Positions 1,160 through 21,235 of a stretch of 64,000 nt of DNA are shown piece by piece. Positions within the stretch are counted from its first letter, which is position 1; every line of letters starts with the position of its first letter. The stretch is from positions 868,001-932,000 of the forward strand of contig NZ_BCNW01000001.1 of assembly GCF_001571385.1 (NCBI RefSeq), in the 5' to 3' direction. The translations under genes and the position numbers were made by a program. The notes beneath the pieces were generated by a model. It made no database searches and was not told the DNA's origin. It was given only the letters and a program-made list of their open reading frames with translations. The DNA comes from Methanofollis ethanolicus (GTDB lineage Archaea; Halobacteriota; Methanomicrobia; Methanomicrobiales; Methanofollaceae).

Positions 1160-1455
1160 GTGCCACCCTCCGTCTCGGGTCCGACGACGCCGTCTACCTG
1201 CTCGTCGGCCGCGAGCGCTACCGGATCGCCCCCGATGACCTGCAGGACCTGATCGTCCACGGCCACGCGGTGCCGGTGACACGGGAGGGCCCGGCGATCG
1301 TGGGCCACGCGGCGGTGAACCCTGCCGGCCGTGCGGTGAAGGTCTTCACGGTCTCGGGCCACTTCATCGTGCCGCTCGTCTCGTTCCGCCGTGTCGCCAC
1401 GGGCGAGGCCAGGTCGGCCCCGCTCTTCCCCCTGGTGCCGGAGGGGTGGCGATGA
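1156..1455 (+). CDS. Small hypothetical protein of replication cassette
   Basis: A 99-residue protein with no recognised domain. It contains several alternating hydrophobic beta-strand-like stretches (VYLLVGRERYRI, GHFIVPLVSF) and is probably a small globular beta-rich protein. It begins in an ATGA overlap with the gene before it and ends in an ATGA overlap (1452-1455) with the primase-helicase, so the three genes form one translationally coupled unit. Function unknown; context implies involvement in replication or copy control of a mobile element. Confidence 0.65.
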   Translation: MSATLRLGSDDAVYLLVGRERYRIAPDDLQDLIVHGHAVPVTREGPAIVGHAAVNPAGRAVKVFTVSGHFIVPLVSFRRVATGEARSAPLFPLVPEGWR

Positions 1456-4211
1456 TCGCCGACGCTCTCGCCGCCCTGTTCTCCGGCGGCGTGGTGGAGG
1501 TGCGGGCCCTCGCGGACTTTGCCACGCACTCGGGCTACTTCGACGATTTCGCCCGCCTTGCGGCGGCGGCCGAGGCCCTGGACGCCGACCCGGAGGTCCG
1601 CGGGATCTATGTCACCCTCAACGTCGTGAACCCGGCCCTCCTCGCCCGCCGGGCGAACAGGGTGAAGATGCGTCTCTCGCGGAGCGACGCGACGACCGCG
1701 GACGCGGACATCCTCCGCCGCCGCTGGTTGCCCATCGACCTGGACCCGGTGCGGCCGAGCGGGGTGTCCTCGACCGAGGAGGAGCACGAGGCGGCCCTCA
1801 GGCGGGCCGACGCGATCGCCCTCTGGCTTGCTGAGCAGGGGTTCTCCGAACCTATCCGCGCCGACTCCGGGAACGGGGCGCACCTCCTCTACGCGATCGA
1901 CCTCGCGAACGACGACGAGGCGACGGCCCTGGTGAAGGGCGTGCTCGCCACCCTCGACGCGTTGTTCTCGGATGAGACGGTCACCGTCGACACGGCGAAC
2001 TCCAACGCCGCACGCATCTGGAAACTCTACGGCACCTGCTCGCGCAAGGGGGACACCACGCGCGAGAGGCCGCACAGGCGGGCGCGGGTGCTCTCGGCGC
2101 CTGAGGAGAGGGAGGTCGTCCCGCCCGAGAAACTCCGGCAGATCGCCACCCGCCTCCCGGTCGAGGCGCCGCCCACGCCCGCACCGACAGGCGGGAAGAC
2201 CGACCTCGCCGCCTGGCTTTCGGAGCACGGCCTCGGGGTGCGTTCCACCCGCCCCTGGCAGGGCGGCACCCTCTTTGTCCTGGAGGACTGCCCCTTCTCG
2301 ACCGCCCACCGCGACGGCGCCTTCGCCGTCCAGTTCCCGAGCGGTGCGGTCTATGCCGGGTGCCACCACGCGAGTTGCGGCGGCGGGACGCAGAGGTGGC
2401 CCGAACTGCGCGGGATGTACGAGAAACGCACCCGGAAAAAACGGGAGGAGATGCCTCCACCACCCCTCCCTCCGGCACCCGCCGCCTTCGCCCGCGAGGA
2501 GGCGATGAAGATTTTAGAACACGGCGACCCCCTCGCCTTCCTCCTCGACACCTTCGCCCGCGAGCACGTCGGCGACCGCATCGTCGCCGAGTGCCTGGTG
2601 ATGTCCCTCGCCTCGCAGTCGGTGAAGAACACCAACGGCCTCCACGTCTCGGTCTCGGGCACCTCGGGGAAGGGCAAGAGCCACGCCTGCGCCACCATGC
2701 TCAAACAGGTGCCCTTCGCCTACCGCATCGCCGGCACGGTGAGCAACAAGGCCCTCTACTACAACGAGAACCTGCAGCCAGGCACCGTCTTCCTCTTCGA
2801 CGACGTCTCCCTCTCCGACGACCTCCAGGAGGTCCTCAAGGCCGCGACCGCGAACTTCAGGGAGGGAATCGAGCACCAGACCCTCACCAACGACCGCAAA
2901 CTCCAGATCTGCCGGATACCGGAGAGGTGCGTCTGGTGGCTTGCAAAGGTCGAGGACGTCGGCGACGACCAGGTGATGAACCGCATGCTCACCACCTGGA
3001 TCGACGACTCCCTCGAACAGGACGAGCGGGTGCTCAGGCACCGGAAGCGTGCGGAGACGCGGGAGGAAGACGAAGACGAGGAGGAAGACCCGGCCCTGCC
3101 GGTCTGCCGGGCGATATGGGAGGTGCTCAAGGAGGAGCGCGTCCACGTCTCGGTGCCGTACGCCGAGGCAGTGCAGTTCTCCTCCTCGGCCAACCGCAGG
3201 AACCCGGGCATCCTCTTCGACATCATCAAGGCCTCGGCACTCCTCCACCGGTTCGAGCGCGAGGACTACGGCGGCGGCATCCGGGCCGACAGGTCGGACT
3301 TCGAGACGGCGGCCCGGATCTACGCGGCGATCAACGGCGAGGCCGGCGGGCAGGAGACGAAACTCACGAAGAACGAGGCCGCCGCCCTTTCGACGGTGGC
3401 GACGATGGGCTGGGAGCAGTTCACGATCAGGATGCTTCAGGAGGCGCTCGGGCTTTCGTACCACCAGACCCGCCGGATCCTCCACGGCTACAACAACGGC
3501 GGCACCATCTACTCGGGACTGCTGGAGAAGTGTCCGGCGGTCAGTTACCTGGACACCACCGTCTCTTCGGATGTCGACGGCTACCTGGTCCGCCGGCGGG
3601 AGCACCAGTTCTCCTTCGACCCGGAGGCGTACCGGCGGTGGACGGCCGGGGCCCATGTCTGGCTCGACCGCGACCCGCCGGACGACGACACTTTCGCACC
3701 CGGAATGCACCGGGATGGCACCGGAGATGTGCAGAGGACGGGGACGGAGGGACGGCCCCGGAGTACCTATTCTAGAGAGAAGAGAGAGAGATCTCTCTCT
3801 CATAGTACTCTATTGCACCAGACTGAGGGGGCACACACCACCCCTGATCTGTCGGGGTCTCGGGGGGTGTGCGCGCGCGATCGGCGTCCTGATGCACATG
3901 ACGGCAAAGATGGGGGTGAAAGCCAGCCGATCCGCAATCCCGGCCAGAAAATACCATCGTTCATCGACAGTGCCGGCGTGCAGCCCGGTGCAATCCTGTG
4001 CACCCGTGCAACCGGGAGCGGGACGCTCACACTCCCCGGCGTGCTGGACCGCCGGGAGTTCACGCGGGTTTCGACCGACCTGGGGCGGTGCAGCGTCTGC
4101 GGCGAGAGGAGGGCGGTGTTCCGGTCGGCCGACGGGCGGGCTCTGCTCTGCGAGGCGTGTTACGGCCGTCTGGTGCGGGCGTGGAACGCGGCGAAGGGGG
4201 TGAGCGGGTGA
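1452..4211 (+). CDS. Primase-helicase replication protein (AEP-type primase + P-loop ATPase)
   Basis: A 919-residue protein of the kind that starts replication of archaeal plasmids and viruses. Residues 96-98 (DLD) give the metal-binding acids of an archaeo-eukaryotic primase, residues 139-144 (SGNGAH) the nucleotide-binding His motif, and D180 with NAARIWKLYGT the third conserved region. Around 255-325 a Cys/His cluster (CPF, then AGCHHASCGG and WPELR) matches the zinc-binding region found after such primases. A P-loop (GTSGKGKS, about 402) and Walker B (FLFDD, about 445) mark the helicase-type ATPase, followed by a winged-helix-like part and a C-terminal CxxC...CxxC zinc finger (about 880-903). 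ATG at 1452 is chosen over GTG 1446 because it forms an ATGA overlap and has GGAGGGG upstream. The stretch about 760-870 is low-complexity and may be a linker. Confidence 0.82.
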   Translation: MIADALAALFSGGVVEVRALADFATHSGYFDDFARLAAAAEALDADPEVRGIYVTLNVVNPALLARRANRVKMRLSRSDATTADADILRRRWLPIDLDPVRPSGVSSTEEEHEAALRRADAIALWLAEQGFSEPIRADSGNGAHLLYAIDLANDDEATALVKGVLATLDALFSDETVTVDTANSNAARIWKLYGTCSRKGDTTRERPHRRARVLSAPEEREVVPPEKLRQIATRLPVEAPPTPAPTGGKTDLAAWLSEHGLGVRSTRPWQGGTLFVLEDCPFSTAHRDGAFAVQFPSGAVYAGCHHASCGGGTQRWPELRGMYEKRTRKKREEMPPPPLPPAPAAFAREEAMKILEHGDPLAFLLDTFAREHVGDRIVAECLVMSLASQSVKNTNGLHVSVSGTSGKGKSHACATMLKQVPFAYRIAGTVSNKALYYNENLQPGTVFLFDDVSLSDDLQEVLKAATANFREGIEHQTLTNDRKLQICRIPERCVWWLAKVEDVGDDQVMNRMLTTWIDDSLEQDERVLRHRKRAETREEDEDEEEDPALPVCRAIWEVLKEERVHVSVPYAEAVQFSSSANRRNPGILFDIIKASALLHRFEREDYGGGIRADRSDFETAARIYAAINGEAGGQETKLTKNEAAALSTVATMGWEQFTIRMLQEALGLSYHQTRRILHGYNNGGTIYSGLLEKCPAVSYLDTTVSSDVDGYLVRRREHQFSFDPEAYRRWTAGAHVWLDRDPPDDDTFAPGMHRDGTGDVQRTGTEGRPRSTYSREKRERSLSHSTLLHQTEGAHTTPDLSGSRGVCARDRRPDAHDGKDGGESQPIRNPGQKIPSFIDSAGVQPGAILCTRATGSGTLTLPGVLDRREFTRVSTDLGRCSVCGERRAVFRSADGRALLCEACYGRLVRAWNAAKGVSG
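3761..3810. repeat. Perfect 20-bp palindrome inside larger inverted repeat
   Basis: Positions 3782-3801 are a perfect palindrome of alternating GA then TC dinucleotides (GAGAGAGAGATCTCTCTCTC). It is nested inside a second arm pair, GAGTAC at 3761-3766 and GTACTC at 3805-3810, with a bulge on the left arm. It lies within the low-complexity C-terminal part of the primase-helicase gene. It could be a protein-binding site, a hairpin at an origin, or the scar of an insertion. Confidence 0.75.
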
Positions 4212-4613: not shown

Positions 4614-6113
4614 ATGGATCCACACGAACAGAACATCCTTTCACTCTCAGAACTGGAATCATGGCTCTTTGCGGCCGCGAACATCCTCCGCGGCCCGATC
4701 GACGCCGCTGATTTCAAGACTTACATCTTCCCTCTCCTCTTCCTGAAGCGGATCTGCGATGTGTACGACGAAGAATACGATCTGGCTGTTGCAGAGGCCG
4801 ATGGGAATATCGAGGAGGCGGAATACAGGGAGAACTTCCGGTTCGTGATCCCCACGGGCTGCCACTGGAAGACTATCAGGGGGCAGAGCGAGGATATCGG
4901 GAAGGCGATCCAGGACGCGATGCGGTGTATCGAGCACGCAAACGAGAAGACGCTCAACCAGATCTTCGGGGATGTGCAGTGGTCGAACAAGGAACGCCTC
5001 TCCGATGCCCTGCTCAAGAACCTGATCGAGCACTTCTCGGAGAAAAACCTCTCGAATGCCTCTGTGGAGTCCGACATCGCCGGGAGGGCCTACGAGTACC
5101 TGATCAAGAAATTTGCGGACGAGTCGAATAAGGCGGCCGGCGAGTTCTATACCCCGCGGATGGTCATCACGTTGATGATGCGGATCCTCAAGCCGCAGGA
5201 GAGGGAGAGCGTCTATGACCCTGCGGTGGGGACGGCCGGGATGCTGCTGGAGGCCCTCTCTTATGTGCAGGAGCATGGGGGCGACATCAACCTCCTCCAC
5301 CTCTACGGGCAGGAGAAGAATATGACAACCTCCTCGATCGCCCGGATGAACCTGATCCTGCACGGCCGCGAGGATTTTCAGATCGTGCGGGGGGACACGC
5401 TCAGGAGCCCGGCGTTTGTGGAGCAGGACCGTCTGAAGACCTTCGACTGCGTGGTGGCAAACCCGCCCTTCTCCCTGAAGAAGTGGGGGGAGGAGGTCTG
5501 GGAGCACGATCCCTATGGCCGGAATTTTGCCGGGATGCCGCCCCAGAGTTATGGCGACTTTGCCTGGGTCCAGCACATGATCGCCTCGATGGCGAAGCCG
5601 AACGGACGGATGGCGATTGTGCTGCCGCAGGGTGCGCTCTTCCGGAAGGGCGCCGAGGGGCGGATCAGAAAGGCGCTCCTGGAGATGGACCTGCTGGAGG
5701 GGGTGATCGGTCTTGGGCCGAACCTCTTCTACGGGACGACGCTTGCGGCGTGCATTCTGGTCTTTCGGTGGCAGAAGGAGGAACGTCTCCGTGAGCGGGT
5801 ACTCTTCATCGATGCGTCGGACGAGTACCAGAAGGGGCGGAACCAGAACCACCTCTGTCCGGAGCATGTGGGCCGGATCTCTGCCTGGTACGAGGGGGGT
5901 CAGGACGTGCCGGGTGCGGTGCGGGTGGCGACGCTCGACGAGATCAGGGGGGAGGACCATAACCTGAACATCTCGCTCTATGTCGAGCCTGTGGTCGAGG
6001 AGGACCCGATGACGGCCGAAGAGGGGCTGGCGCGGGTGAAGGATGCGGCGGCCGCGTGCACCGAGGCCGAGGAGCGGTTGAAGAGGTTGCTTGCCGGGGA
6101 AGGGGGGGTCTGA
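4614..6113 (+). CDS. hsdM: Type I restriction-modification methyltransferase subunit HsdM (copy 1)
   Basis: A 499-residue N6-adenine DNA methyltransferase subunit. The N-terminal HsdM_N region (LESWLFAAANILRGPIDAADFKTYIFPLLFLKR, spread over residues 11-43) is followed by the SAM-binding motif I DPAVGTAGM near residue 202 and the catalytic motif IV NPPF near residue 283. Both are intact. Length is normal for HsdM. With HsdS it would form the modification complex that methylates host DNA and, with HsdR, the restriction complex. It is the first gene of the locus and its stop directly touches the ATG of a second, related hsdM. Two full HsdM genes in one locus is unusual. Confidence 0.95.
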   Translation: MDPHEQNILSLSELESWLFAAANILRGPIDAADFKTYIFPLLFLKRICDVYDEEYDLAVAEADGNIEEAEYRENFRFVIPTGCHWKTIRGQSEDIGKAIQDAMRCIEHANEKTLNQIFGDVQWSNKERLSDALLKNLIEHFSEKNLSNASVESDIAGRAYEYLIKKFADESNKAAGEFYTPRMVITLMMRILKPQERESVYDPAVGTAGMLLEALSYVQEHGGDINLLHLYGQEKNMTTSSIARMNLILHGREDFQIVRGDTLRSPAFVEQDRLKTFDCVVANPPFSLKKWGEEVWEHDPYGRNFAGMPPQSYGDFAWVQHMIASMAKPNGRMAIVLPQGALFRKGAEGRIRKALLEMDLLEGVIGLGPNLFYGTTLAACILVFRWQKEERLRERVLFIDASDEYQKGRNQNHLCPEHVGRISAWYEGGQDVPGAVRVATLDEIRGEDHNLNISLYVEPVVEEDPMTAEEGLARVKDAAAACTEAEERLKRLLAGEGGV

Positions 6114-7592
6114 ATGGCGCCCGAACCGATCACCCAGGCCGAACTGGAGAAGTATCTCTGGGGGGCGGCGGTGCTGCTCAGGGGCTATATCGATGCGAGC
6201 GACTACAAGCAGTACATCTTCCCGCTGCTCTACTTCAAGCGGATCTGCGACTGCTACGACGAGGAGACGGAGCGGGCGCTGGCGGCGTGCGGCGAGGTCT
6301 TCCCTGAGGACCACCGCTTCGTGGTGCCTGAGGGGGCGCACTGGCGTGATGTGCGGGCGGTGACCGAGGATGTGGGGGTGGCGCTCCAGGTGGCGATGCA
6401 CCGGATCGAGGACGCAAACAGGGAGACGCTTGCCGGGATCTTCGGGGACACGTCGTGGACGAACAAGAACTTCCTCTCCGATGCGACGCTCCGCGATCTG
6501 GTGGAGCATTTCTCGTCAGAGACGCTCTCCCTTGCCCATGTGCCGCAGGACGAACTGGGGCAGGGCTACGAGTATCTGATCAAGAAGTTTGCGGACGATT
6601 CGGGACATACGGCGGCGGAGTTCTACACGAACCGGACGCTGGTGCGGTTGATGACGCAGATGCTCGACCCGCAGGAGGGGGAGTCGGTGTACGATCCGAC
6701 CTGCGGGAGTGCGGGGATGCTGCTTGTCGCCGCCCTGCAGGTGCGGGAGCAGGGGAAGGAGTACCGGAGTCTGCGTCTCTTCGGGCAGGAGATCAATTTG
6801 ATCACGTCGTCGATCGGGCGGATGAACCTCCTGCTCCATGGTATCGAGGACTGCACGATTGTGCGGGGCGACACCCTGGCGGACCCGGCGTTTGTGGAGC
6901 ACGACCGTCTGCAGACGTTCGACTGTATCCTTGCCAATCCGCCGTACTCGATCTCGCGCTGGGACAGGGAGGCGTTTTCGAGTGACCGCTGGGGCCGGAA
7001 CCTCTTCGGGGTGCCGCCGCAGGGGCGTGCGGACTACGCCTTTTTCCAGCATATCATCAGGAGCATGGACCCGGCGACGGGGCGGTGTGCGATCCTCTTC
7101 CCGCACGGGGTGCTCTTCCGCGATGCGGAGAGGGAGATGCGCCGCCGGATCGTGGAGGCCGATCTCGTCGAGTGCGTGCTGGGCCTCGGGCCGAACCTCT
7201 TCTACAACTCGCCGATGGAGGCGTGCGTGATCGTCTGCCGGATGCAGAAACCGCCTGCACGACGCGGGCGGGTCCTCTTCATCAACGCGGTGGACGAGGT
7301 GACCCACGAGAAGGCGCAGAGTTTCCTGGAGCCCAGGCATATCGCGAAGATCCTGGCGGCCTACCTGAGCGACGAGGATGTCGAGGGATTTTCCCGCTCT
7401 GTGCCGGTCGAGGAGATCCTGGCGAAGGACGCGAACCTGAGCATCCCCCGGTATGTTGCCCGGTGCGATGACGACGATGCGACCCCGACGTTTGCAGGGG
7501 TGTATGAGGAGTGGACCGAGTATACGACGGAGAAGAGCGACGCGATGGAAGAACTGCGTGCAGTGCTGAAGGAGGTGGGGCTGGATGGGTGA
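6114..7592 (+). CDS. hsdM: Type I restriction-modification methyltransferase subunit HsdM (copy 2)
   Basis: A 492-residue paralogue of the preceding HsdM with the same layout: HsdM_N region starting at residue 7 (TQAELEKYLWGAAVLLRG), motif I DPTCGSAGM near residue 193, and motif IV NPPY near residue 276. Catalytic motifs are intact, so this is not a decayed duplicate. The two copies share many blocks (EYLIKKFADxS, EFYT, RGDTL, PAFVE) but differ throughout, which argues for an old duplication or a true two-subunit design. The ATG follows the stop of copy 1 without a gap, and its 3' end overlaps hsdS by 8 nt. Confidence 0.95.
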   Translation: MAPEPITQAELEKYLWGAAVLLRGYIDASDYKQYIFPLLYFKRICDCYDEETERALAACGEVFPEDHRFVVPEGAHWRDVRAVTEDVGVALQVAMHRIEDANRETLAGIFGDTSWTNKNFLSDATLRDLVEHFSSETLSLAHVPQDELGQGYEYLIKKFADDSGHTAAEFYTNRTLVRLMTQMLDPQEGESVYDPTCGSAGMLLVAALQVREQGKEYRSLRLFGQEINLITSSIGRMNLLLHGIEDCTIVRGDTLADPAFVEHDRLQTFDCILANPPYSISRWDREAFSSDRWGRNLFGVPPQGRADYAFFQHIIRSMDPATGRCAILFPHGVLFRDAEREMRRRIVEADLVECVLGLGPNLFYNSPMEACVIVCRMQKPPARRGRVLFINAVDEVTHEKAQSFLEPRHIAKILAAYLSDEDVEGFSRSVPVEEILAKDANLSIPRYVARCDDDDATPTFAGVYEEWTEYTTEKSDAMEELRAVLKEVGLDG

Positions 7593-8778
7593 GTGTGCAA
7601 TGGTCCGGTTTTCTGAGATGGCCAGTCAGGTCACGACCAAGGTGAAACCTGCCGACACCGACCTCGATCGCTATGTGGGGCTGGAGCACCTTGACCCGGA
7701 GTCCCTGCATATCAGGCGGTGGGGCGTGCCGGGAGATGTCACCGGGGAGAAGATCGTGGTCAGGAAGGGCGACGTCATCTTCGGGAAGCGGCGTGCCTAC
7801 CAGCGGAAGGTCGCCATCGCAGACTTCGACTGTATCTGTTCGGCCCATGCGATGGTTCTCCAGCCCAAAGAGGATGTCATTATCAGGGAAATTTTCCCCT
7901 TCTTCCTCCAGTCGGATCTTTTCATGAACCGTGCGGTCCAGATCTCGGTGGGCGGTCTTTCCCCGACGATCAACTGGAAGGATCTTGCCGGGCAGGAGTT
8001 TCCCCTCCCGCCCATCGAGGAGCAGCGCCGCATTGCCGGGGTGCTCCGGGCGGCGGAGGACGTGATCGTGAAGGACGAGGCGCTCGTCGCCGAGGCCGAG
8101 CACTATAAGCAGGTGATGATGCGGGAGTTGTTCTCGAAGGGGATCGGGCATGAGGAGTTCCATTCAATACGAAAACTAGGTGTTTTACCTAAAATATGGA
8201 CCGTAAAAAAGTTAGGGGAAATTTCAACCATAACTTCAGGTGGAACACCAAATAGAAAAGTCAAAACCTACTGGAACGGAGAAATACCGTGGATAAAAAC
8301 TGGTGAAGTGAATTATAATGTCATAATGGATACTGAAGAAAAAATTACACAAGAAGGACTGGACAATTCCTCTGCAAAGGTGGTACCACCTGGAACATTA
8401 TTAATGGCCCTTTATGGAGAGGGCGTTACAAGAGGTAGGGTCGCTATCACAGGTATCGCTGCAGCAATAAACCAGGCGTGTGCTGTCATTTTTTGTGAAG
8501 ACATTGTTTTAATGAAATATCTTTATTATAACATCTCATATCGCTACAATGATATCCGAGATCTAAGTGGAGGGGCGAATCAAAAAAATTTAAACATCTC
8601 GATAATTAAGGATATTTTAATTCCCCTTCCTCCCCTCCCCGAACAGCGCCAGATCGCCGCCATCCTCTCCGCCATCGACGACACCATCGCCGCCGCCCGT
8701 GGGAGTGTCGAGGCCTCGAAGGCGCTGAAGATGCGGTTGATCAACCAGGTGCTCTCGCCCGCCGGTGAGACGGCGTGA
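7585..8778 (+). CDS. hsdS: Type I restriction-modification specificity subunit HsdS
   Basis: A 397-residue protein that recognises the two halves of the target sequence. Two target-recognition domains are each followed by the conserved PLPPIEEQRRIA (about residue 138) or PLPPLPEQRQIA (about residue 350) and a coiled-coil spacer. ATG at 7585 has GGAGGTGGGG in front and overlaps hsdM copy 2. Codons from about 8161 to 8630 are AT-rich, whereas both flanks are GC-rich. So the second target-recognition domain is foreign and its borders coincide with the conserved spacer blocks, as expected for domain exchange by recombination. Confidence 0.93.
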   Translation: MGECAMVRFSEMASQVTTKVKPADTDLDRYVGLEHLDPESLHIRRWGVPGDVTGEKIVVRKGDVIFGKRRAYQRKVAIADFDCICSAHAMVLQPKEDVIIREIFPFFLQSDLFMNRAVQISVGGLSPTINWKDLAGQEFPLPPIEEQRRIAGVLRAAEDVIVKDEALVAEAEHYKQVMMRELFSKGIGHEEFHSIRKLGVLPKIWTVKKLGEISTITSGGTPNRKVKTYWNGEIPWIKTGEVNYNVIMDTEEKITQEGLDNSSAKVVPPGTLLMALYGEGVTRGRVAITGIAAAINQACAVIFCEDIVLMKYLYYNISYRYNDIRDLSGGANQKNLNISIIKDILIPLPPLPEQRQIAAILSAIDDTIAAARGSVEASKALKMRLINQVLSPAGETA

Positions 8779-8850
8779 TCGACGAGAACATCCTCTCTTT
8801 TTCCGTACCACGCTCCCGAACCCCTGCGCCTTCCCCGACCCGATCGGTAT

Positions 8851-8858
8851 CTTTATGC
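8851..8858 (+). promoter_or_regulatory. Candidate TATA box before the three-gene insert
   Basis: In the 161-nt gap between hsdS and the next ATG (8940), ctttatgc follows a cggtat sequence and would start a transcript near 8880. If real, the TIGR04255-like/unknown/HEPN-like genes have their own promoter instead of depending on hsdM-hsdS read-through. Confidence 0.35.
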
Positions 8859-8939
8859 ATGATGCCACAGGATATCAGGTCAGGAAAGAAGAACCTATTA
8901 CCATCTTCAGAACAAGTGTATACGGGAGCGTGAATATCC

Positions 8940-9680
8940 ATGAATGATTATCGGAACCCACCCATCGTCGAGGCAGTCTGTGAGTTCCGGTTTTCATCAG
9001 ATACACCGTGGGAACAGGACCTCCCCGACCGCTTCTACGACGCCGTCAGAGATCATTTCCCGATCCGCGAGTCCAGAAAGGGACAGAGTCTTGAGATCAA
9101 GGCAAACGCTACCGGCATCGAGAAGCACACCGTGGAGACGGTCGACATACCGGTCTTCTTCACAAAAGACCGTAAGATGCTCGTCCAGCTCGGCCCGCGG
9201 GCACTCTCGGTCCACTGCCTCAGGCCCTATCCCTCATGGGAGGTGTTCGGCCCGACGATCCGCCGGGCCTACGAGATCATCGACTCCCTCACCGGAGGCA
9301 TCAGGGGGTTTGACCGCATCGGCCTCCTCTACGTCGACAAGATCGAGATCCCTGGAGAAACCGTCCGGCTCGAAGACTACTTCGCCTTCTATCCCCACCT
9401 GGGCGAGGGACTTCCCGAGGAAGTCGTGAACTTCATGGTCGGGTGCGACTTCGCGTATAATGACAGGGACATCTGCCGGCTGAAACTGACCCAGGCGATG
9501 CCGGAAAAGCAGAACACCCTGGCATACCTGCTCTCCACAGACTACTTCCTCGCACAAAAAGACACCGTGAGACCCGAAGACGCATGCGCATGGGTGGAAG
9601 AGGCGCACATCAAGGTAAAAGCCCTCTTCAAAGGCTGCATTACGAAAAAGTTGGAAGAAATCTTCGATCTGGAGGAGTGA
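8940..9680 (+). CDS. TIGR04255-like protein, unknown function
   Basis: A 246-residue soluble protein. The N-terminus NPPIVEAVCEFRF is the hallmark of the sporadically distributed TIGR04255 family, whose function is not established. Residues 85-130 (VQLGPRALSVHC, then GIRGFDRIGLLYVDKIEIP) also fit the family. No transmembrane segment or catalytic signature is seen. It sits between hsdS and hsdR, immediately ahead of an unknown gene (stop TGA then ATG, no gap) and a HEPN-like gene. The patchy distribution of the family and the restriction-locus context suggest a defence or toxin-antitoxin role; this is inference. Confidence 0.8.
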   Translation: MNDYRNPPIVEAVCEFRFSSDTPWEQDLPDRFYDAVRDHFPIRESRKGQSLEIKANATGIEKHTVETVDIPVFFTKDRKMLVQLGPRALSVHCLRPYPSWEVFGPTIRRAYEIIDSLTGGIRGFDRIGLLYVDKIEIPGETVRLEDYFAFYPHLGEGLPEEVVNFMVGCDFAYNDRDICRLKLTQAMPEKQNTLAYLLSTDYFLAQKDTVRPEDACAWVEEAHIKVKALFKGCITKKLEEIFDLEE

Positions 9681-10232
9681 ATGACCACATCCCTGCCGTC
9701 CTACCCATTTGAATCTTCCAGAAAAGTCTGGAATTTCCCCGACCTCCCTGAAGAAAAAGCATCGGAAGACTCGTGGATCACGAAACTGCGGAACCGTGTC
9801 AATCGTCTCTTCCGTGACACCAGCGCCAGCTATCAGGACGCATATGCCCTGGACGCTCACGTTGAGAGCCCGAGCCTCTCATATACCGCCGAACTCTCAC
9901 TCCCCACGCTCCTGGCGAAATTGCACGTCGCCATCGCACACCCCGCAGAGGTCATAGACTACATCCTCCAGAATCCCGGCCTCGGCCCGATCGTGATGTA
10001 CGCCTGCCTCCTCACAAAAGACGAATTCAGGCACGACGCAACCATCACCCTCGACCTCTACCAGGACCCGGAGAGCGACGACCGCTACCTGACCATCTAT
10101 GTCAGGCAGAAGAAATACGATAAAAATATCCTCAAGAGGATAGACAAAATTTGTGACGAATACGAGCCCGCCCTCAGGGGTCAGTCCGGCTGGCTCCTCC
10201 TGACCACGGACTATAAACATCCCTCCTCATAA
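9681..10232 (+). CDS. Hypothetical protein within restriction locus
   Basis: A 183-residue soluble protein with no family recognised. The N-terminal 30 residues are Pro/Ser-rich, residues 35-60 look helical (ITKLRNRVNRLFRD), and the C-terminal half alternates strands and helices (PIVMYACLLTKDEF, ATITLDLYQDPES, RYLTIYVRQKKYDKN). It begins directly after the TIGR04255-like stop and ends 2 nt before the HEPN-like ATG, so the three genes are almost certainly co-translated. It may be the partner or antitoxin of the flanking gene products, but nothing in the sequence proves that. Confidence 0.7.
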   Translation: MTTSLPSYPFESSRKVWNFPDLPEEKASEDSWITKLRNRVNRLFRDTSASYQDAYALDAHVESPSLSYTAELSLPTLLAKLHVAIAHPAEVIDYILQNPGLGPIVMYACLLTKDEFRHDATITLDLYQDPESDDRYLTIYVRQKKYDKNILKRIDKICDEYEPALRGQSGWLLLTTDYKHPSS

Positions 10233-10234
10233 CC

Positions 10235-10612
10235 ATGACATTCTCCTGGTCGCAGTTCGTTGAGATTGCCGAATATCTCAAAGAGCAGGGCGAGAAAAAA
10301 ACGATTCCCCTTGAGGCCGCCTACCGATGCTCTATTAGCAGGGCTTATTATGGAGCATTTCGATATGCGAGAGACTACGCAACAGCAAAGATGGGTTTCA
10401 CTCCAAAACAAAGCAGTAAAGATCATTCAGACCTGAGAAATGTGTTTAGAAAAAATAATATGATGAGCATATACCGAAAACTCGACAGTCTCCGCCAGTG
10501 GAGAAATGCGTGTGATTATGACAATCCCTTTAAAGGGACAAATTTTGATTTAGCAACAAATGTTTCTGATTCTATTACCACTGCCCATGAAATCATCGCC
10601 GCCCTCAAATGA
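10235..10612 (+). CDS. HEPN-like small protein within restriction locus
   Basis: A 125-residue, mostly helical protein. The order SRAYYGAFRYARDYA, HSDLRNVF, then LRQWRNACDYDNPF resembles HEPN-type proteins in which an Arg-rich helix ends in RNxxDYD. The canonical R-x4-6-H ribonuclease motif is not clearly present, since C-D-Y-D stands where RN(x)ADYD occurs in related proteins. HEPN proteins are often toxic RNases or nucleotide-handling partners in defence modules. The gene is AT-richer than hsdR and hsdM, so it may have been acquired separately. It ends about 100 nt before hsdR. Confidence 0.65.
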   Translation: MTFSWSQFVEIAEYLKEQGEKKTIPLEAAYRCSISRAYYGAFRYARDYATAKMGFTPKQSSKDHSDLRNVFRKNNMMSIYRKLDSLRQWRNACDYDNPFKGTNFDLATNVSDSITTAHEIIAALK

Positions 10613-10714
10613 TCGGCTGGAAAAGAAACCAATCGAAAATAAAATAACCCTGCGTCCCTATTCTCTCTATCAATTGCCTTTCGAGCAATATTTTATTCAT
10701 CGAGATGACCCCCC

Positions 10715-13618
10715 ATGAGTTTTGACGAAGCAAACACCGTCCGCGACGGCCTCCGGGACCACCTGACGCAGAACGGGTGGACATACATCCCCGCCGCCAC
10801 CCTTCCCCGCACAGAGGGAGACGTGCTGGTCGAACCCTACCTCAAAACCGCTCTCATCAGGCTCAATCCCGAGATCGCCCGCCAGCCCGACCAGGCCGAC
10901 GAGGTCATCTACCGTCTCAGAGCCATCCTCCTCGCCGTCCAGGGCGAGGGACTCGTGCGGGCCAACGAACGCTTCGCCGAGATCCTCTGCGGCGGCCTCT
11001 CCATGCCCTTCGGCGAGAACTACCGCTATGTCCCGGTGAAGATCATCGACTTCGCCCACCCGGCCAGCAACCACTTCGTCACCACCACCGAATATTCCTA
11101 TACCGGCGCCGTCACCAGGCGGGCCGACAACGTCCTCCTCGTCAACGGCATCCCGCTCGTCGTCGGCGAATGCAAGACCCCGGTCCGCCCGGCGATCACC
11201 TGGATCGACGCCGCCGAACAGGTCCACGACGACTACGAGACAAACATCCCCGCCCTCTTCGTCCCGGGCATCTTCGCCTTCGCCACCGAAGGCAAGAAAT
11301 TCTACTACGGCGCCGTCCGCGCCCCCCTCGATGCCTGGGCCCCCTGGAAAGAGGACGAAGACGACGAGGCCGCCTCACCCATCGCCGACGTCATGGACAC
11401 CGCCATGAACCTCCTCGCCCCCGCAACCGTCCTCGACATCCTCAAGAACTACACCCTCTATGCCACCGACGCAAAGAACCGGAAGATCAAGATCGTCTGC
11501 CGCCACCAGCAGTACGACGCCGGCAACAAGATCGTCGACCGCGTCGTGGACGGCCGGATCAAAAAAGGGCTTATCTGGCACTTCCAGGGCTCGGGCAAAT
11601 CCTTCCTCATGGTCTTCGCCGCCCAGAAACTCCGTCTCCACCCGGCCCTCAAAAACCCGACCGTGATCGTCGTCGTGGACAGGACCGACCTCGACACCCA
11701 GATCAACGCCACCTTCCACACCACCGACATCCCCAACACCGTCAATGCCGGCAACCGGGAAGACCTCAGGCGCCTCCTCTCCCAGGACACCAGAAAGATC
11801 ATCATCACCACCATCCACAAGTTCGCCGAGGCCGACGGCGTCCTCAACGACCGGGCCAACATCATCCTCCTCTGCGACGAGGCCCACCGCACACAGGAGG
11901 GCGACCTCGGGCAGAAGATGCGGGAGGCCCTGCCGAACGCTTTCCTCTTCGGCCTCACCGGCACCCCCATCAACCAGGTGGACCGCAACACCTTCAGGGC
12001 CTTCGGAGCAACGGAGGACGAGTCAGGATACCTCAGCATCTACTCGCCCGAGGACGCCATGCGGGACGGCGCCACCCTCCCCCTCCACTTCGAGCCCCGT
12101 CTCATCGAGTATCATATCGATCGGGAGGGGATCGACGAGGCCTTCTCCACCCTCACCGACTCCCTTGATGAAGACGAGACACGGGACCTGATCCGGAGGG
12201 CCAGCCGCCGGTCCACCTTCGTCCACGCCCGTGAACGGATTGAACGGGTGGCCGGGGACATCGTGCACCATTTCAAGGAATCAGTCGAGCCACACGGCTT
12301 TAAGGCGATGATCGTCTGTTATGACCGGCAGTCCTGTGTCCAGTACAAAGAGGCGCTCGATAAACTCCTGCCGCCTGAGGCGTCGGAGATCGTCATGACT
12401 GTGGGCCGCAGCGACCCCGACGAGTGGAAGCACCGCTGGGACCGGAGCAAGGAGGACGAGGAGAAACTCCTCGACCGTTACCGGGACCCGCTCGACCCCC
12501 TGCAGTTTGTCATCGTCACCGCCAAACTCCTCACCGGTTTCGACGCACCCATCCTCCAGACGATGTACCTTGACAAACTCATGAAGAACCACACCCTCCT
12601 GCAGGCGATCTGCCGGACCAACCGACCCTATTCCGGCAAGTCCTTCGGGTTGATCGTGGACTACATCGGGGTCTTCGACGAGGTGGCCAGATCCCTCGCC
12701 TTCGACGAGAAGAGGATGAGAGAGATCGTCACCAACATCGACAGCCTGAAAGACCAGTTCCCCGAGATGCTCGCCGCCTGCCTCGCCCATTTTCCAGGTG
12801 TCGACCGGGGCGTGAACGGGTGGGAGGGCCTCATCGCCGCCCAGCAGTGCATCCCGACTAATGAGGCACGCGATGCCTTCGCCCTCGATTATATCAACCT
12901 TGCAAAACTCTGGGAGGCCATGTCGCCTGACCCCTTCCTGGCGACATACAAGGAGGACTACCGCTGGCTTACTCAGGTCTATGAATCGGTGAGGCCGGTC
13001 AACTGTGCAGGCCGTCTCCTCTGGAAGAAACTCGGGGCGAAAACCCTTGAGATCATCCATGAAAATGTGCACGTCGAAGGGATCAAAGACGACTTCGACG
13101 AGATCGTCATCGACGAGGATACGGTGAGAGACCTCCTGGAGAACAGGGACGAGCACACGATCAAGAAACTGGAGATCCAGATCATCACGCGTCTCAGGAA
13201 ACATGCAAACAATCCGGCATTCGTCAGGCTCGGGGAGCGTCTGGAGCAGATCAAGGAGCAGTACGAGAAGGGTTTCATTGACAGTCTGGAGTTCCTGAAG
13301 TCCCTCATCCAGCTCGCACGCGATGTGGTGATGGCCGAGAAAGAGGTTGAAACAGTCGAGGAGCAGCAGCAGGCGAAGGCAGCCCTGACCGAACTTTTTG
13401 AGGAGGCACGGACCGATACGACGCCGGTGATCATCGAGAGAATCGTCACCGACATCGACGCGGTGGTGCGGGCGGTCAGGTTCGATGGCTGGCAGCAGAG
13501 CAACCCGGGGGAGCGGGACGTGAAGAAGGCCCTCCGTGGGGCGCTCAGAAAGTACCAGTTGCAGAACGACCAGGATCTCTTCGACCGGGCGTATGAATAT
13601 ATCAGGCAGTATTATTGA
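10715..13618 (+). CDS. hsdR: Type I restriction enzyme subunit HsdR
   Basis: A 967-residue restriction and translocation subunit. The N-terminal nuclease domain carries the PD-(D/E)xK-type E-x-K in VVGECKTP (about residue 152). The SF2 motor has a P-loop in FQGSGKSFL (about 291-296), a DEAH box in LLCDEAHRTQ (about 388), motif III LTGTP, and a C-terminal half with FDAPILQTMYLDK and QAICRTNRPY. The C-terminal 150 residues are helical, as in EcoR124-type subunits that bind the HsdMS complex. It completes the locus and shows no truncation. A GAGATGACCCCCC stretch before the ATG offers only a weak ribosome-binding site. Confidence 0.95.
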   Translation: MSFDEANTVRDGLRDHLTQNGWTYIPAATLPRTEGDVLVEPYLKTALIRLNPEIARQPDQADEVIYRLRAILLAVQGEGLVRANERFAEILCGGLSMPFGENYRYVPVKIIDFAHPASNHFVTTTEYSYTGAVTRRADNVLLVNGIPLVVGECKTPVRPAITWIDAAEQVHDDYETNIPALFVPGIFAFATEGKKFYYGAVRAPLDAWAPWKEDEDDEAASPIADVMDTAMNLLAPATVLDILKNYTLYATDAKNRKIKIVCRHQQYDAGNKIVDRVVDGRIKKGLIWHFQGSGKSFLMVFAAQKLRLHPALKNPTVIVVVDRTDLDTQINATFHTTDIPNTVNAGNREDLRRLLSQDTRKIIITTIHKFAEADGVLNDRANIILLCDEAHRTQEGDLGQKMREALPNAFLFGLTGTPINQVDRNTFRAFGATEDESGYLSIYSPEDAMRDGATLPLHFEPRLIEYHIDREGIDEAFSTLTDSLDEDETRDLIRRASRRSTFVHARERIERVAGDIVHHFKESVEPHGFKAMIVCYDRQSCVQYKEALDKLLPPEASEIVMTVGRSDPDEWKHRWDRSKEDEEKLLDRYRDPLDPLQFVIVTAKLLTGFDAPILQTMYLDKLMKNHTLLQAICRTNRPYSGKSFGLIVDYIGVFDEVARSLAFDEKRMREIVTNIDSLKDQFPEMLAACLAHFPGVDRGVNGWEGLIAAQQCIPTNEARDAFALDYINLAKLWEAMSPDPFLATYKEDYRWLTQVYESVRPVNCAGRLLWKKLGAKTLEIIHENVHVEGIKDDFDEIVIDEDTVRDLLENRDEHTIKKLEIQIITRLRKHANNPAFVRLGERLEQIKEQYEKGFIDSLEFLKSLIQLARDVVMAEKEVETVEEQQQAKAALTELFEEARTDTTPVIIERIVTDIDAVVRAVRFDGWQQSNPGERDVKKALRGALRKYQLQNDQDLFDRAYEYIRQYY

Positions 13619-13667: not shown

Positions 13668-13847
13668 TCACTTCTTCCGGTACACATTCACCCCGATCTT
13701 CACCTCCTCCCTCCCCGGCACCGACACATTTCCATCGGTCGAGGCGATCGTGATCGACTTCCCTGACTTCGACGCCCCAAACTCCTTTGAGAGATCGACC
13801 GTGATCACCAGCCTATCCCCCTCCACCTTCATCTCAACATTTTTCAT
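13668..13847 (-). CDS. Conserved 59-residue small protein
   Basis: A 59-residue protein starting MKNVEMKVEGDRLVITVDL, followed by a Ser/Lys-rich turn (GASKSGKSITIASTDGN), then VPGREEVKIGVNVYRKK. It resembles small conserved proteins seen in both archaea and bacteria. It is mostly beta-strand and of unknown function. Its start codon lies inside the last codons of the orc1 gene on the same strand (14-nt overlap), so the two are co-transcribed and probably translationally coupled. Confidence 0.8.
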   Translation of the reverse strand: MKNVEMKVEGDRLVITVDLSKEFGASKSGKSITIASTDGNVSVPGREEVKIGVNVYRKK

Positions 13848-15021
13848 CGTCGCACACTCCTGCGGGAATGTTCACCGGCACGCCCGATGAACCTGCCGGG
13901 ACCGGTATCACCTCCTCCACCCCGTCCCTCACCTCGATCACCCGCGTCCTCCCCTTCCCCTGCCGCACCGCGAGGTCCACGAGGCGCAGGTGCTCCAACT
14001 TCTTCAGCCTCTCGTGGAAGGTCGTGTAACTCGTCCGCCCCCCTGCGCAGACCCGTTCGTACGCCATCCCCGCCGTCACCGGCCCGCCTCCCTCCCTCTC
14101 CAGGGCGAGGACGACGTCGAGTACCGCCCTCTCCCCGGCCGTGAGCGCCCGCACCGCCATCGCCACATGCAGGTGCCGGGAGACGGCAAAGGCCGCGAGC
14201 ACGTCCCCGGTCGTCACCACGGTCCTCGCCTCCCTCTCGGCCGCCAGGGCCGCCCGCCGGATCATGTCGAGCCCCACCCGCAGGTCGCCGCAGGCGTCTG
14301 TCCGCTCCACCAGGAGGTCGAGGACCGCGGGCGGCACGACGCCCGGGTACAGCCCGGCCCGGATCCGGTCGGCGAGGATGCCCCGCACCTCCGCCGCCGC
14401 GTACGGGGGGAAAAGGATCTCCGAGGCCTGGAGCACCGAGCGGGTGGCCGGGTCGAGGGTGCGGGCGAGGTCGGTCTCCGGGGCGGAGAGGGTGAGGACC
14501 ACGCCGGTCCGCACGCCCGGCCAGGCCTCGTGCATCCTGAGGAGGGGGGCGAGCACCTGGTTCAGCACGCCGTCAGGGATGAGTTCGTTGGCGTCGTCCA
14601 GGCAGACGACCAGGACCGCTCCCCTCTCCGCGAGGGCGTGAGCGATCCCGGCCATCAGCCGCGTGGTCGAGACCCCGGACGGCGGCGGCAGGTGGCCGAC
14701 GAGGGCGAGGAAGATCCGGGAGAAGACGGCGTACTCTGTCTTCTCGGTCTGGCAGGAGACGAGCACCGGCACCACCGTCTGCGTCGTCTCCTCCACCTCG
14801 GCAAAGATCCGGCGGACCGCGGTGGTCTTGCCGGTGCCGGGGATGCCGCGGAGCACGGTGTTCAGGGGGCTGGCGCCGTAGGAGAGGGTGGGCCGCAGGG
14901 CGAAGGTGAGGTCCTCGACCTGGGCGTCGCGGTAGAGGAAGGCCTCGGGGAGGTGGGTGATCTCGAAGAGGTCGGGGTCGCGGAAGAGGGTCTGGTCGCT
15001 CATGAGGGGGGCGTGTGTCAT
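13834..15021 (-). CDS. Orc1/Cdc6-type replication initiator
   Basis: A 395-residue AAA+ ATPase of the archaeal Orc1/Cdc6 family, which binds origin DNA and loads the MCM helicase. Walker A is GIPGTGKTT (59-67), Walker B is VVCLDDANE (about 138-146), and the C-terminal 90 residues form a winged helix (TYTTFHERLKKLEHLRLVDL). ATG 15021 fits a TATA box about 25 nt upstream, implying a leaderless or very short-leader transcript; ATG 15003 is an alternative start. The gene overlaps a 59-aa protein gene downstream. Orc1 genes often lie next to the origin they serve, but no clear origin-recognition repeats were seen in the 15022-15215 gap. Confidence 0.9.
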   Translation of the reverse strand: MTHAPLMSDQTLFRDPDLFEITHLPEAFLYRDAQVEDLTFALRPTLSYGASPLNTVLRGIPGTGKTTAVRRIFAEVEETTQTVVPVLVSCQTEKTEYAVFSRIFLALVGHLPPPSGVSTTRLMAGIAHALAERGAVLVVCLDDANELIPDGVLNQVLAPLLRMHEAWPGVRTGVVLTLSAPETDLARTLDPATRSVLQASEILFPPYAAAEVRGILADRIRAGLYPGVVPPAVLDLLVERTDACGDLRVGLDMIRRAALAAEREARTVVTTGDVLAAFAVSRHLHVAMAVRALTAGERAVLDVVLALEREGGGPVTAGMAYERVCAGGRTSYTTFHERLKKLEHLRLVDLAVRQGKGRTRVIEVRDGVEEVIPVPAGSSGVPVNIPAGVCDDEKC

Positions 15022-15215: not shown

Positions 15216-16636
15216 GTGTCCTCGCCTCCGCCGTGCGGTCCGGGGGCGAGGCCCACGGATAACCTCGCCTCCCTCCTCGCCCGCTTCGAAGGGCGGCGGG
15301 TCGACTTCAAGGAAGAAGTGAGCGACACCTTCTACAAACTTCTCTCCGCCTTCGCCAACACCGCCGGCGGCACCGCCGTTATTGGCGTCAGGGACAGCGA
15401 CCACGCCGTCACCGGCATCGATCTGCGGAACAACGCCCAGAAAAAAACTCGCAGACAGCATCAGCAGCAGGATCGGCATCCGCCCGGTCATCGAGACCCA
15501 CGAGGTCGACGGCAAAAATATCCTCACTGTCACCGTCGAGCAGAGCAGCACCCCCGTCGCCTGTGACGGACGGTATTACACCCGCGTCGGCGACACCACC
15601 CGCGAGATGCTCCCCGACGAACTGCGGGTCTACTTCCAGCAGAGCATTGAATGGGACGGCGTCCCCGGCACGTTCGACCCCGATGAGATCGACGGGGAGA
15701 GCGTCAGGCGGTTTCTCGCCCTCGCCCACAAGGCCGGCCGCCTCACGGCCATCGACCCGGACGAGCCGGTCGATGCCGTCCTCCGCCGCCTCGGCCTCGT
15801 CAGGGACGGACGCATCACCAACGGCGCCGTCGTCCTCTTCGGCAAGGATCCGCAGACATATTTCCCGAACACCATCCTCAGGATCGGGAGGTTCAGGCGG
15901 GCCGACATCATCATCGGCGACCACGAGATCAGGGGCAATCTCTTCGCCCAGTTCGAGGAGGCTGAGAGGATCATCAAGAACTACATCGGCGTCCGCTATG
16001 ACATCTCAGAGGAGGCGATGCAGGAGTCCTTCCAGAGGAAGGAGGTCTGGGAATATCCTCTCCCGGCGATCAGAGAGGCCCTGCGAGAGCGCCCTCATCC
16101 ACCGGGACTACTTCAACAACACCGTCCAGACCCAGGTCAGGATCTTCGACGATGCTATCCGCTTCCGCAACGCCGGTCGCCTCCCGGAGGGCGTCACCAT
16201 CGAGATGATCCTCAGGGAACATTCTTCCTATCTCCGCAACCCGATGGTCGCCGACATCTTCTACCGTGCCGGACTCGTGGAGCGCTACGGGTCGGGGATC
16301 GAACGGATCATCAGGGCCTTCGGCGATGCTGGCGCCCCGATCCCCACGTTCTCCAGCACGCCCCTCGGTTTCACCATCGACATGCACACAGATACCCTGA
16401 CAGACGATGCCCTGCTGGAGATGGGGCTCGGCGAAAGACAGATCGCGGCAGTTCATTACCTCAAAGAGCACGGCACCATCACCAACAGCCAGTACCAGGA
16501 CCTCAGCGGTGTTTCGGCCACCACTGCCCTCAAAGAACTGAAAGCCCTGGCCGAAGTCGGTATTCTTGAGCGCAGAAGCCCCTCAAAGAAAAAGACGCAC
16601 TATGTGCTGAAGCAGGGATCGGCATCAGATGTATGA
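15216..16636 (+). pseudogene. AlbA_2/HATPase_c_4 putative regulator broken by two frameshifts
   Basis: Three successive reading frames give one protein of about 470 residues. The first part (FKEEVSDTFYKLLSAFANTAGGTAVIGV) is a Schlafen-type AlbA_2 domain. The last part (ALIHRDYFNN, VERYGSGIERI) is the GHKL-type ATP-binding region of the family, followed by a helix-turn-helix (NSQYQDLSGVSATTALKELKAL). The first break is a run of seven A at 15441-15447 where six would keep frame. The second is an extra C near 16084, whose removal restores REALESALIHRDY. Both breaks shift +1. Either this is a young pseudogene or both are sequencing errors. The start is uncertain; GTG at 15216 is the best guess. 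Confidence 0.8.
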
Positions 16637-18097: not shown

Positions 18098-21000
18098 ATG
18101 GAAGTTATTTCTGGCATCTATGAGCAACTCATCAACGAATACGTTAACTCTCACATTACATTGCTCAATAAAGAGGGGAAATCTGCATACAAAGATACAA
18201 TTACTCACTATGACCCTCAGGCAATTCTCTCTCGATATCTTCATACAATTCTCTTGAAAGCCCTTCAGACCGCAGATGAAAAGTCCGTTCCCCTTGAAAA
18301 CCAAGTTGTGTTGTGCAATGAGATCATACAGCACATCGCCTGCACAATAAAAGACCCTACTCTCGAACAGTGCAAAATTACAGACGACGCAGAGATCCTT
18401 CTTGCGATCCTGAAAAATGACCGCCATAGTGCAGAAAAAGATATCAAAAAACTTCGTCCTCTAACGTCCATTGCACATAGTAGTTTATTCACAGGCTCTC
18501 CCTATGAACCGAGTCTCGTGGACGAATTGAGAAGAGAAATCACGTCCTCAGATCGGATCGATCTTCTTATCTCTTTTATTAAATGGAGTGGGATACGCCT
18601 TATCATCGACGAATTAAGGGAGTTTGTGAAAGAAGGACGATTACGAATAATAACCACATCATACACCGGTGCAACCGATCTCAAAGCAATCGAAGTCCTC
18701 TCCAAACTCCCCAATACGACGATTAAAATATCGTATGATACCGACAGGACACGATTACACGCAAAAACCTATACATTCCAGAGAAAAAATGGTTTTTCAA
18801 CATCCTACATCGGATCCTCGAACCTTTCAAATCCTGCCATAACAAGCGGTCTGGAATGGAATGTCAAGGTAACAGAGCAGGACTCCTTTGACATCCTCAG
18901 AAAGATCGATGCAACATTTGAGTCCTACTGGAATGATCCTGAATTCATCGAATATAGTGCTGATGGGAAAGAAGAATTACGTCGTGCTCTTTCGAAAGAA
19001 AAGCGTGCTGATATCGAAATTATCCCGATTTTTGATATCAAACCCTATTACTACCAAAAAGAGATCCTCGAAACGTTGAGAGCAGAGCGATCATTACACG
19101 GCAACACCCGAAATCTGATCGTTGCTGCTACAGGAACAGGAAAAACCGTTATCTCAGCATTTGACTATAAGGGACTTGTCTCAACATTTGGAAAGTATCC
19201 TCGACTTCTTTTTGTTGTCCATAGAGAGGAGATACTCAAGCAGAGTCTCAACGTCTTCAGGGGCATTCTCAAAGATCCCAACTTCGGAGATCTCATGGTC
19301 GGCGGGAACGAACCCTCTCAATTAGACCATTTGTTTACTTCAATTCAGAGTTTCAATAGTAGAAACTTGCCCGAATTCACCTCTCCAGACTACTATGATA
19401 TGATCATTGTCGATGAGTTTCATCATGCTGCTGCACCATCATATCAGAAGGTACTGTCATACTACACTCCAAAGATCCTGCTCGGTCTGACGGCAACCCC
19501 CGAACGCATGGATGGCCTTGACATCCTTCAATACTTTAACGGAAAAATTACCGCTGAGATCAGGTTGCCTGAAGCGATCAATCGTAAATTGCTTGCTCCC
19601 TTCCATTACTTCGGTGTTACTGATGTCGTCGACCTCGAAGATCTCCCGTGGAAACGAGGGACATATGATCCTGTGGAACTCTCTCACCTATTCACAGGAA
19701 ACCGAGAACGAGTGGAACAGATCATACAAGCCGTACAAAACTACACAACCGACATTCATGATATAATTGGGCTTGGATTCTGCGTATCTATTGATCATGC
19801 TGAGTTCATGGCAGAATCTTTTACTGAGGCAGGTATCCCTTCAGAGTGTCTGCATACCAAGATCTCACGAGAGGATCGCTTCTCCGTTCAAAAAAGATTG
19901 ATATCTCGTCAGATTTATTTCATCTTTGTCGTTGACCTCTATAATGAGGGTATTGATATCCCTGAGGTGAACACGATCCTCTTCTTACGTCCTACAGAGA
20001 GTCTCACCGTTTTTCTCCAACAACTTGGACGGGGACTTCGCCTCTCTGAGGGGAAAGAGTGCTTGACAGTTCTTGATTTTGTGGGGAGACACAACAAAAA
20101 ATACCAGTTTGGGGATAAATTTGCCGCACTCCTCTCTTCAGGGGCGAGGTCACTATATGAGCAGGTCTCTACCGATTCCTATGATCTCCCGAAGGGGTGC
20201 CATATCCACCTTGAGAAAGTGGCTCAACAGAATGTGCTTGAGAACATAAAGGCAAATCTCACAAACAGATCCTTGCTTCTTGAGAAAATTCGATCATTTG
20301 AAGAAGAAACCGGGAAAAAATTGACCTTCAAAGATTTCTTGTGTCACTCCTCATTACGGCCCCTTGATATCTATCGCAAGGGGACTTTTTCGTCTTTGGC
20401 TGCTGAAGCAGGTGTCTATCCCTCCATCTATGCAACAGATGATCTTTTCACTCAAAACGCGGCATTGAGGTTAGCATCTATTGATTCACCAAAAGTCATT
20501 CAGTTCATCAGATCGTTCTTGGTAGACCCTGACCTCTTTACGTGTGATAGTCTCTCCGAGACGGAGAGACGTATGCTCACCCTCTTCTATTACTCTTTGT
20601 ATGAGGCGCCTCTCCCGTCCAGAGATCTCGCTATTCATGATATGTTCTCTCCTCTTTTCGAGAAGGAGAAAATACGGGACGAGATCTGCGATCTTTTAGA
20701 CTATACTTCTGAACATCTCGATTTTATACCCGAGGATGTGGACATCGGTTTTGAGAGTCCTCTCGAACTCCATTGCAGGTACACGCGGGACCAGATATTT
20801 GCGGCATTGGGTCACTACACCCTGACCGAGAAACCTGCGAAAGGGAGTCGGGAAGGGGTACTGTATCTTGCTGACAAGAATGTCGATGTCTTTCTTATCA
20901 CCCTGAATAAGACCGAAGAACTCTACTCGCCGACAACGATGTACAAGGATTACGCGGTGAATGAAGATTTGTTCCACTGGCAGTCTCAGAGCACGACGTC

Positions 21001-21235
21001 TGAGTCGTCAGGAACAGGTCAGAGATATATCGAGCATGAACGTCGAGGGAGTAAGGTTCTTCTTTTTGTCCGCGAGTTCAAAAAAATTGGGAGTGTTACT
21101 CAACCGTATATGTTCCTCGGAACTGCTCGCTATGTCTCCCATGAGGGAAGTCGGCCGATGAGTATTCTCTGGAGACTGGATCATGCCCTGCCGTCACGTC
21201 TCTTTGTGAAGGCGAATAAAATGTTGATTGGATAA
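18098..21235 (+). CDS. PLD-nuclease/SF2 helicase/DUF3427 fusion, putative defence protein
   Basis: A 1045-residue protein. Residues about 125-270 form a phospholipase D-like nuclease domain with a single HxK motif (RLHAKTYTF, then GSSNLSNPAI). Residues about 305-700 are an SF2 helicase with P-loop AATGTGKT, DEFHH box, GLTATPERMDG and QQLGRGLR. The C-terminal 350 residues match the DUF3427 region that usually follows. With one HKD half-site the nuclease probably works as a dimer. The gene is markedly AT-rich compared with the flanking DNA, which points to horizontal transfer. Such fusions are commonly linked to restriction-like DNA processing; antiphage function here is inference. Confidence 0.88.
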   Translation: MEVISGIYEQLINEYVNSHITLLNKEGKSAYKDTITHYDPQAILSRYLHTILLKALQTADEKSVPLENQVVLCNEIIQHIACTIKDPTLEQCKITDDAEILLAILKNDRHSAEKDIKKLRPLTSIAHSSLFTGSPYEPSLVDELRREITSSDRIDLLISFIKWSGIRLIIDELREFVKEGRLRIITTSYTGATDLKAIEVLSKLPNTTIKISYDTDRTRLHAKTYTFQRKNGFSTSYIGSSNLSNPAITSGLEWNVKVTEQDSFDILRKIDATFESYWNDPEFIEYSADGKEELRRALSKEKRADIEIIPIFDIKPYYYQKEILETLRAERSLHGNTRNLIVAATGTGKTVISAFDYKGLVSTFGKYPRLLFVVHREEILKQSLNVFRGILKDPNFGDLMVGGNEPSQLDHLFTSIQSFNSRNLPEFTSPDYYDMIIVDEFHHAAAPSYQKVLSYYTPKILLGLTATPERMDGLDILQYFNGKITAEIRLPEAINRKLLAPFHYFGVTDVVDLEDLPWKRGTYDPVELSHLFTGNRERVEQIIQAVQNYTTDIHDIIGLGFCVSIDHAEFMAESFTEAGIPSECLHTKISREDRFSVQKRLISRQIYFIFVVDLYNEGIDIPEVNTILFLRPTESLTVFLQQLGRGLRLSEGKECLTVLDFVGRHNKKYQFGDKFAALLSSGARSLYEQVSTDSYDLPKGCHIHLEKVAQQNVLENIKANLTNRSLLLEKIRSFEEETGKKLTFKDFLCHSSLRPLDIYRKGTFSSLAAEAGVYPSIYATDDLFTQNAALRLASIDSPKVIQFIRSFLVDPDLFTCDSLSETERRMLTLFYYSLYEAPLPSRDLAIHDMFSPLFEKEKIRDEICDLLDYTSEHLDFIPEDVDIGFESPLELHCRYTRDQIFAALGHYTLTEKPAKGSREGVLYLADKNVDVFLITLNKTEELYSPTTMYKDYAVNEDLFHWQSQSTTSESSGTGQRYIEHERRGSKVLLFVREFKKIGSVTQPYMFLGTARYVSHEGSRPMSILWRLDHALPSRLFVKANKMLIG

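Follow-up and report, generated by a model that had tools for sequence, protein, structure and literature searches.

A Methanofollis ethanolicus locus with two different HsdM genes is very probably an archaeal PacII-like m6A/m4C Type I restriction-modification system

In classical Type I restriction-modification (R-M) systems, one kind of methylase subunit (M) suffices. A non-canonical kind has been described in which an M1 subunit (motif NPPF) makes m6A and an M2 subunit (motif NPPY) makes m4C, on opposite strands and within an M1M2S heteromer (PMC9613975). The discovery of m4C Type I systems is credited to Morgan et al. 2016 by the papers that cite it (PMC9613975, PMC6158711), and these systems, as summarised in PMC9613975, have in common with the locus studied here the pairing of an NPPF-type (m6A) with an NPPY-type (m4C) subunit. 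This bacterial m6A/m4C kind was described in 2016 and its crystal structure in 2022; for PacII, the activity of M1M2S has been shown and the M1M2S-DNA complex solved (PDB 7vru and 7vs4; PMC9613975). Here, we compared with these systems a Type I locus at positions 4614-13618 of a 64,000-nucleotide stretch of the Methanofollis ethanolicus genome (hereafter “the window”). The locus shares HsdM, HsdS, and HsdR folds and a type of second specificity domain (TRD2) with EcoR124I and EcoKI (M2S/R2M2S), but it encodes two different M rather than two copies of one, with M2 belonging to another subfamily, and thus departs from the single-HsdM composition of classical systems. It agrees instead with the PacII kind in having two HsdM with one HsdS and one HsdR, in its pocket motifs, in the subfamily placement of its M proteins, and in a cytosine-type TRD. 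We therefore regard the locus as very probably an archaeal member of the PacII-like m6A/m4C kind, whose M1M2S heteromer would yield both m4C and m6A. Our literature search pairing Methanofollis with Type I or m4C systems found no paper mentioning Methanofollis.

The ORF listing of the window places seven uninterrupted ORFs in the locus, all on the + strand and arranged like an operon. The genes hsdM1 (4614-6113; 499 aa) and hsdM2 (6114-7592; 492 aa) abut, the M1 stop ending at 6113 and M2 starting at 6114, and the start of hsdS (7585-8778; 397 aa) lies within the last M2 codons, with an overlap of 8 bases, so that M1, M2, and S look translationally coupled. Both M proteins contain HsdM_N and N6_Mtase (Pfam; E 8e-100 and 5e-85), with the motifs DPAVGTAGM/NPPF in M1 and DPTCGSAGM/NPPY in M2; HsdS has two Methylase_S stretches (Pfam) and matches 1yf2_A and 7vru_C, the latter being PacII S, in the PDB. 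The motor-nuclease gene hsdR (10715-13618; 967 aa) encodes an EcoR124 HsdR homologue with HSDR_N, SWI2_SNF2, and Type I R domain 3 (Pfam), and scores 524.7 bits, over the cut-off, with NCBIfam hsdR. An earlier note on this DNA had described two adjacent intact HsdM genes sharing one HsdS and one HsdR, and the ORFs, Pfam and NCBIfam matches, and motifs bear this description out. The genome as a whole (2.71 Mb in three contigs) holds four N6_Mtase matches, two of which are the M1 and M2 of the window. The presence of a normal HsdR also separates the locus from MADS (mad2/mad5), to which it has distant HsdM/HsdS-like homology; MADS was rejected as an identification, as the matches were weak and far below the NCBIfam cut-offs.

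Each M protein found its best PDB match in a different PacII subunit: M1 in 7vru_A, the PacII M1 (E 8e-169, versus 1e-127 for PacII M2), and M2 in 7vru_B, the PacII M2 (E 1e-166, versus 2e-136 for PacII M1). The identities were 54.8% between the M1 proteins, where 12 of 12 tested residues were identical, and 53.3% between the M2 proteins. As in PacII, the class-specific pocket residues are AGEF/NPPF in M1 and AAEF/NPPY in M2, all matching the PacII subunits. The window M2 retains the PacII M2 pocket (F180, N285-P-P-Y288, and F373) together with R29, K167/K168, and H175, and departs from PacII M2 at K15, D19, R130, K291, and R410; the last of these, a base-contacting Arg in PacII M2, is Lys in the window, a change shared by 19 of 87 M2 sequences. 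Among 162 M sequences, motif IV and the H175 column each separated the two subfamilies completely: the NPPF-type F together with G was present in 75/75 M1 and the NPPY-type Y in 87/87 M2, and the H175 column held His in 87/87 M2 and Lys or Arg in all M1. Arg29 of PacII M2 has been described as conserved in M2 and not in M1 (PMC9613975); we rejected it as an M2-only marker, because 60 of the 75 M1 sequences also carry Arg at this position (residue 26 in M1 and residue 23 in M2) and another 12 carry Lys. The distinction between NPPF and NPPY, which the earlier note does not mention, is the known m6A/m4C distinction. About 13 two-M loci (L043/L094, L072, L077, L087, L090, L101, L104, L112, and others) have M2 frames longer than 700 aa, several of them reaching about 900-960 aa, which would fit proteins in which M2 and S are fused.

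The two specificity domains of HsdS differ in their likeness to PacII. The first, TRD1 (7585-8034; about aa 1-150), is identical to PacII TRD1 at 89 of 140 positions (64%) and retains all six of R75, R76, Y78, Q79, K81, and H94, which in PacII contact CCC and its backbone (PMC9613975), whereas TRD2 (8182-8652; about aa 200-356) is identical at 41 of 127 (about 32%), so that the adenine half-site should differ from that of PacII. The coiled-coil region has diverged as well. Among 78 fetched two-M loci with TRD1 relatives, 71 had both arginines (R75/R76), 32 the full RRYQKH set, and 27 a D replacing H, while TRD2 was matched in few fetched two-M loci and was mostly unalignable. The HsdS genes near M loci of the same order that lack an M1-M2 pair (pairless loci) gave the reverse picture. 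TRD2 matched their domains at 27-45%, including 42-45% identity to both TRDs of the HsdS at L151, from a genome of the order with no two-M locus detected; TRD1 gave one weak partial match to pairless HsdS, in control loci mostly fetched with 1.5 kb flanks, so that S genes often lay outside the covered sequence. Since TRD1 recurs in two-M loci and is nearly absent from the pairless controls, and TRD2 behaves in the opposite way, TRD1 looks like a special cytosine-side domain and TRD2 like an ordinary adenine-side domain.

By homology to PacII, we infer how such an enzyme would be assembled and what it would do. HsdS would bind one M1 and one M2, with the NPPY-type M2 placed over TRD1, the predicted reader of a CCC half-site, where M2 would make m4C, and the NPPF-type M1 placed over TRD2, making m6A in the second half-site on the opposite strand. 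The joining of HsdR would then complete an R2M1M2S nuclease, which would cleave DNA without both marks. The predicted marks are thus m4C in the CCC half-site and m6A in its partner. This would explain why the locus has two methylase genes that differ from each other: very probably, one acts on adenine in one strand and the other on cytosine in the opposite strand. The earlier note had proposed an M1-M2-S heteromer with each M matched to one half-site or strand, and had implied a second 6mA for M2. The heteromer is supported in outline by homology to PacII, although such an arrangement is already published, and the same homology leads us to expect m4C rather than 6mA from M2.

That expectation needs to be weighed against a reading in which the M1M2S heteromer forms with adenine as the target of M1 and M2 alike (asymmetric m6A/m6A) and the NPPY subunit is just an alternative kind of adenine methylase. 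NPPY was rejected as sole proof of m4C since M.TaqI is an adenine methylase with NPPY, and we therefore based the m4C call on subfamily and TRD1 evidence. In addition, PacII M2 also methylates adenine when offered one, keeping this activity on altered DNA (PMC9613975). What M2 makes therefore depends on whether TRD1 presents it with a cytosine. The unchanged CCC-reading residues of TRD1 and the grouping of the window M2 in one clade with PacII M2, a subunit for which m4C has been shown by experiment, argue against an adenine product, and we consider this reading very unlikely.

We built a tree of both HsdM copies (86 rows), an analysis that the earlier note had suggested. All 35 M2 rows, including PacII M2, formed one clade with 100/100 support. 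The M1 rows did not form one resolved clade, and the window M1 lay together with PacII M1 opposite the M2 clade. M1 and M2 together were set apart (100/99) from 16 divergent M rows of pairless loci of the same order, an outgroup that consists only of the divergent methylases of this order, such that closer m6A-only relatives may exist. The five nearest loci were identical for the window M1 and the window M2, which indicates that the pair was inherited together.

The two M proteins are 51% identical over 464 aa, which excludes a recent duplication, as the earlier note had recognised from differences throughout the copies. Both are 93-97% conserved in other Methanofollis loci, and the relatives with 96-97% M2 identity are Methanofollis. 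Adjacent M1-M2 pairs were found in 10 of 150 genomes of the order Methanomicrobiales, four of these ten being Methanofollis, and a scan of named genomes yielded at least 80 loci, from archaea (Methanofollis, Methanoculleus, Methanoperedens, Methanoregulaceae, and Methanomassiliicoccus) and bacteria (Verrucomicrobiota, Planctomycetota, Chloroflexota, Bacteroidota, Pseudomonadota, and others). In 86 of the 90 loci fetched (a few being one locus fetched twice), the two M genes shared a strand and M1 came upstream; the exceptions were mostly at contig ends. The earlier note had allowed that the tandem layout might be common and already described; with its recurrence across bacterial phyla and methanogen families and the publication of the PacII kind, it is both. 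These observations bear on whether one HsdM might be redundant or decaying, leaving an ordinary M2S homodimer enzyme. A single M is enough in classical systems, but here both genes are intact and conserved, each M retains its own subfamily residues, and the two are kept together in nearly all fetched loci, so that we rejected a recent duplicate or decaying copy and judge such an enzyme highly improbable. It is scarcely credible that two overlapping Type I systems came to share S and R by chance or recombination, as two M genes beside one S might suggest, because the same set of genes (M1, M2, S, and R) is found again in other phyla and the trees of the two M proteins are parallel.

Besides its methanogenic archaeal host, the locus differs from PacII in a three-gene cassette (8940-10612) between hsdS and hsdR, which is likewise absent from the earlier note. 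It comprises a TIGR04255-family protein (8940-9680; NCBIfam TIGR04255, E 6e-39), a 183-aa protein (9681-10232) with no Pfam, NCBIfam, or PADLOC match, and a 125-aa protein (10235-10612) that is HEPN-like by eye only and had no family or PDB match; our literature search found no mention of TIGR04255. The 183-aa and 125-aa proteins accompany their cassette neighbours in other genomes, and about a dozen Methanomicrobiales genomes have kept the three genes together as a unit, in most cases not near a two-M locus (L146-L155). The cassette occurs in other contexts in at least nine other genomes of the order, in one case next to a fragment of HsdR where the contig ends and in another near CRISPR-Cas-like genes (named by eye). 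In two-M loci from other genera, its place is taken by different genes. As the cassette is found elsewhere without two-M loci, we treat it as nested cargo: the TIGR04255 gene and its neighbours are probably a passenger outside the R-M enzyme. That the cassette might be a separate, undescribed archaeal defence module, working with or guarding the surrounding R-M system, is a tentative idea that we think rather unlikely.

Several neighbouring genes were also observed. Upstream of the R-M genes lies a 921-aa protein without a Pfam family (1446-4211), and proteins that begin similarly (VVEVRAL...HSGYFDD) are encoded upstream of M1 at L036, in another genome (G039), and next to the three-gene cassette at L150 and L153. 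On the other side, the locus is adjoined by a Cdc6/Orc1-like AAA ATPase (13834-15021, - strand; Pfam), and further along are a Schlafen AlbA_2/RecG-C-terminal-like gene (15216-16636), probably frameshifted, with its AlbA_2 and HATPase_c_4 matches in different ORFs, and another probable defence gene encoding a 1045-aa PLD nuclease, ResIII helicase, and DUF3427 protein (18098-21235).

Overall, this locus leaves the understanding of Type I enzymes unchanged. It adds a well-defined Methanofollis member, with CCC as the predicted motif of its m4C side, to the PacII-type m6A/m4C systems. Our comparison further shows that two-M systems conserve the TRD on the cytosine side and vary in the one on the adenine side. 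A methylome study that looked only for a bipartite 6mA motif, as the earlier note had proposed, would miss half the signal, and calling 4mC alongside 6mA would be advisable in nanopore or PacBio methylomes of methanogens.
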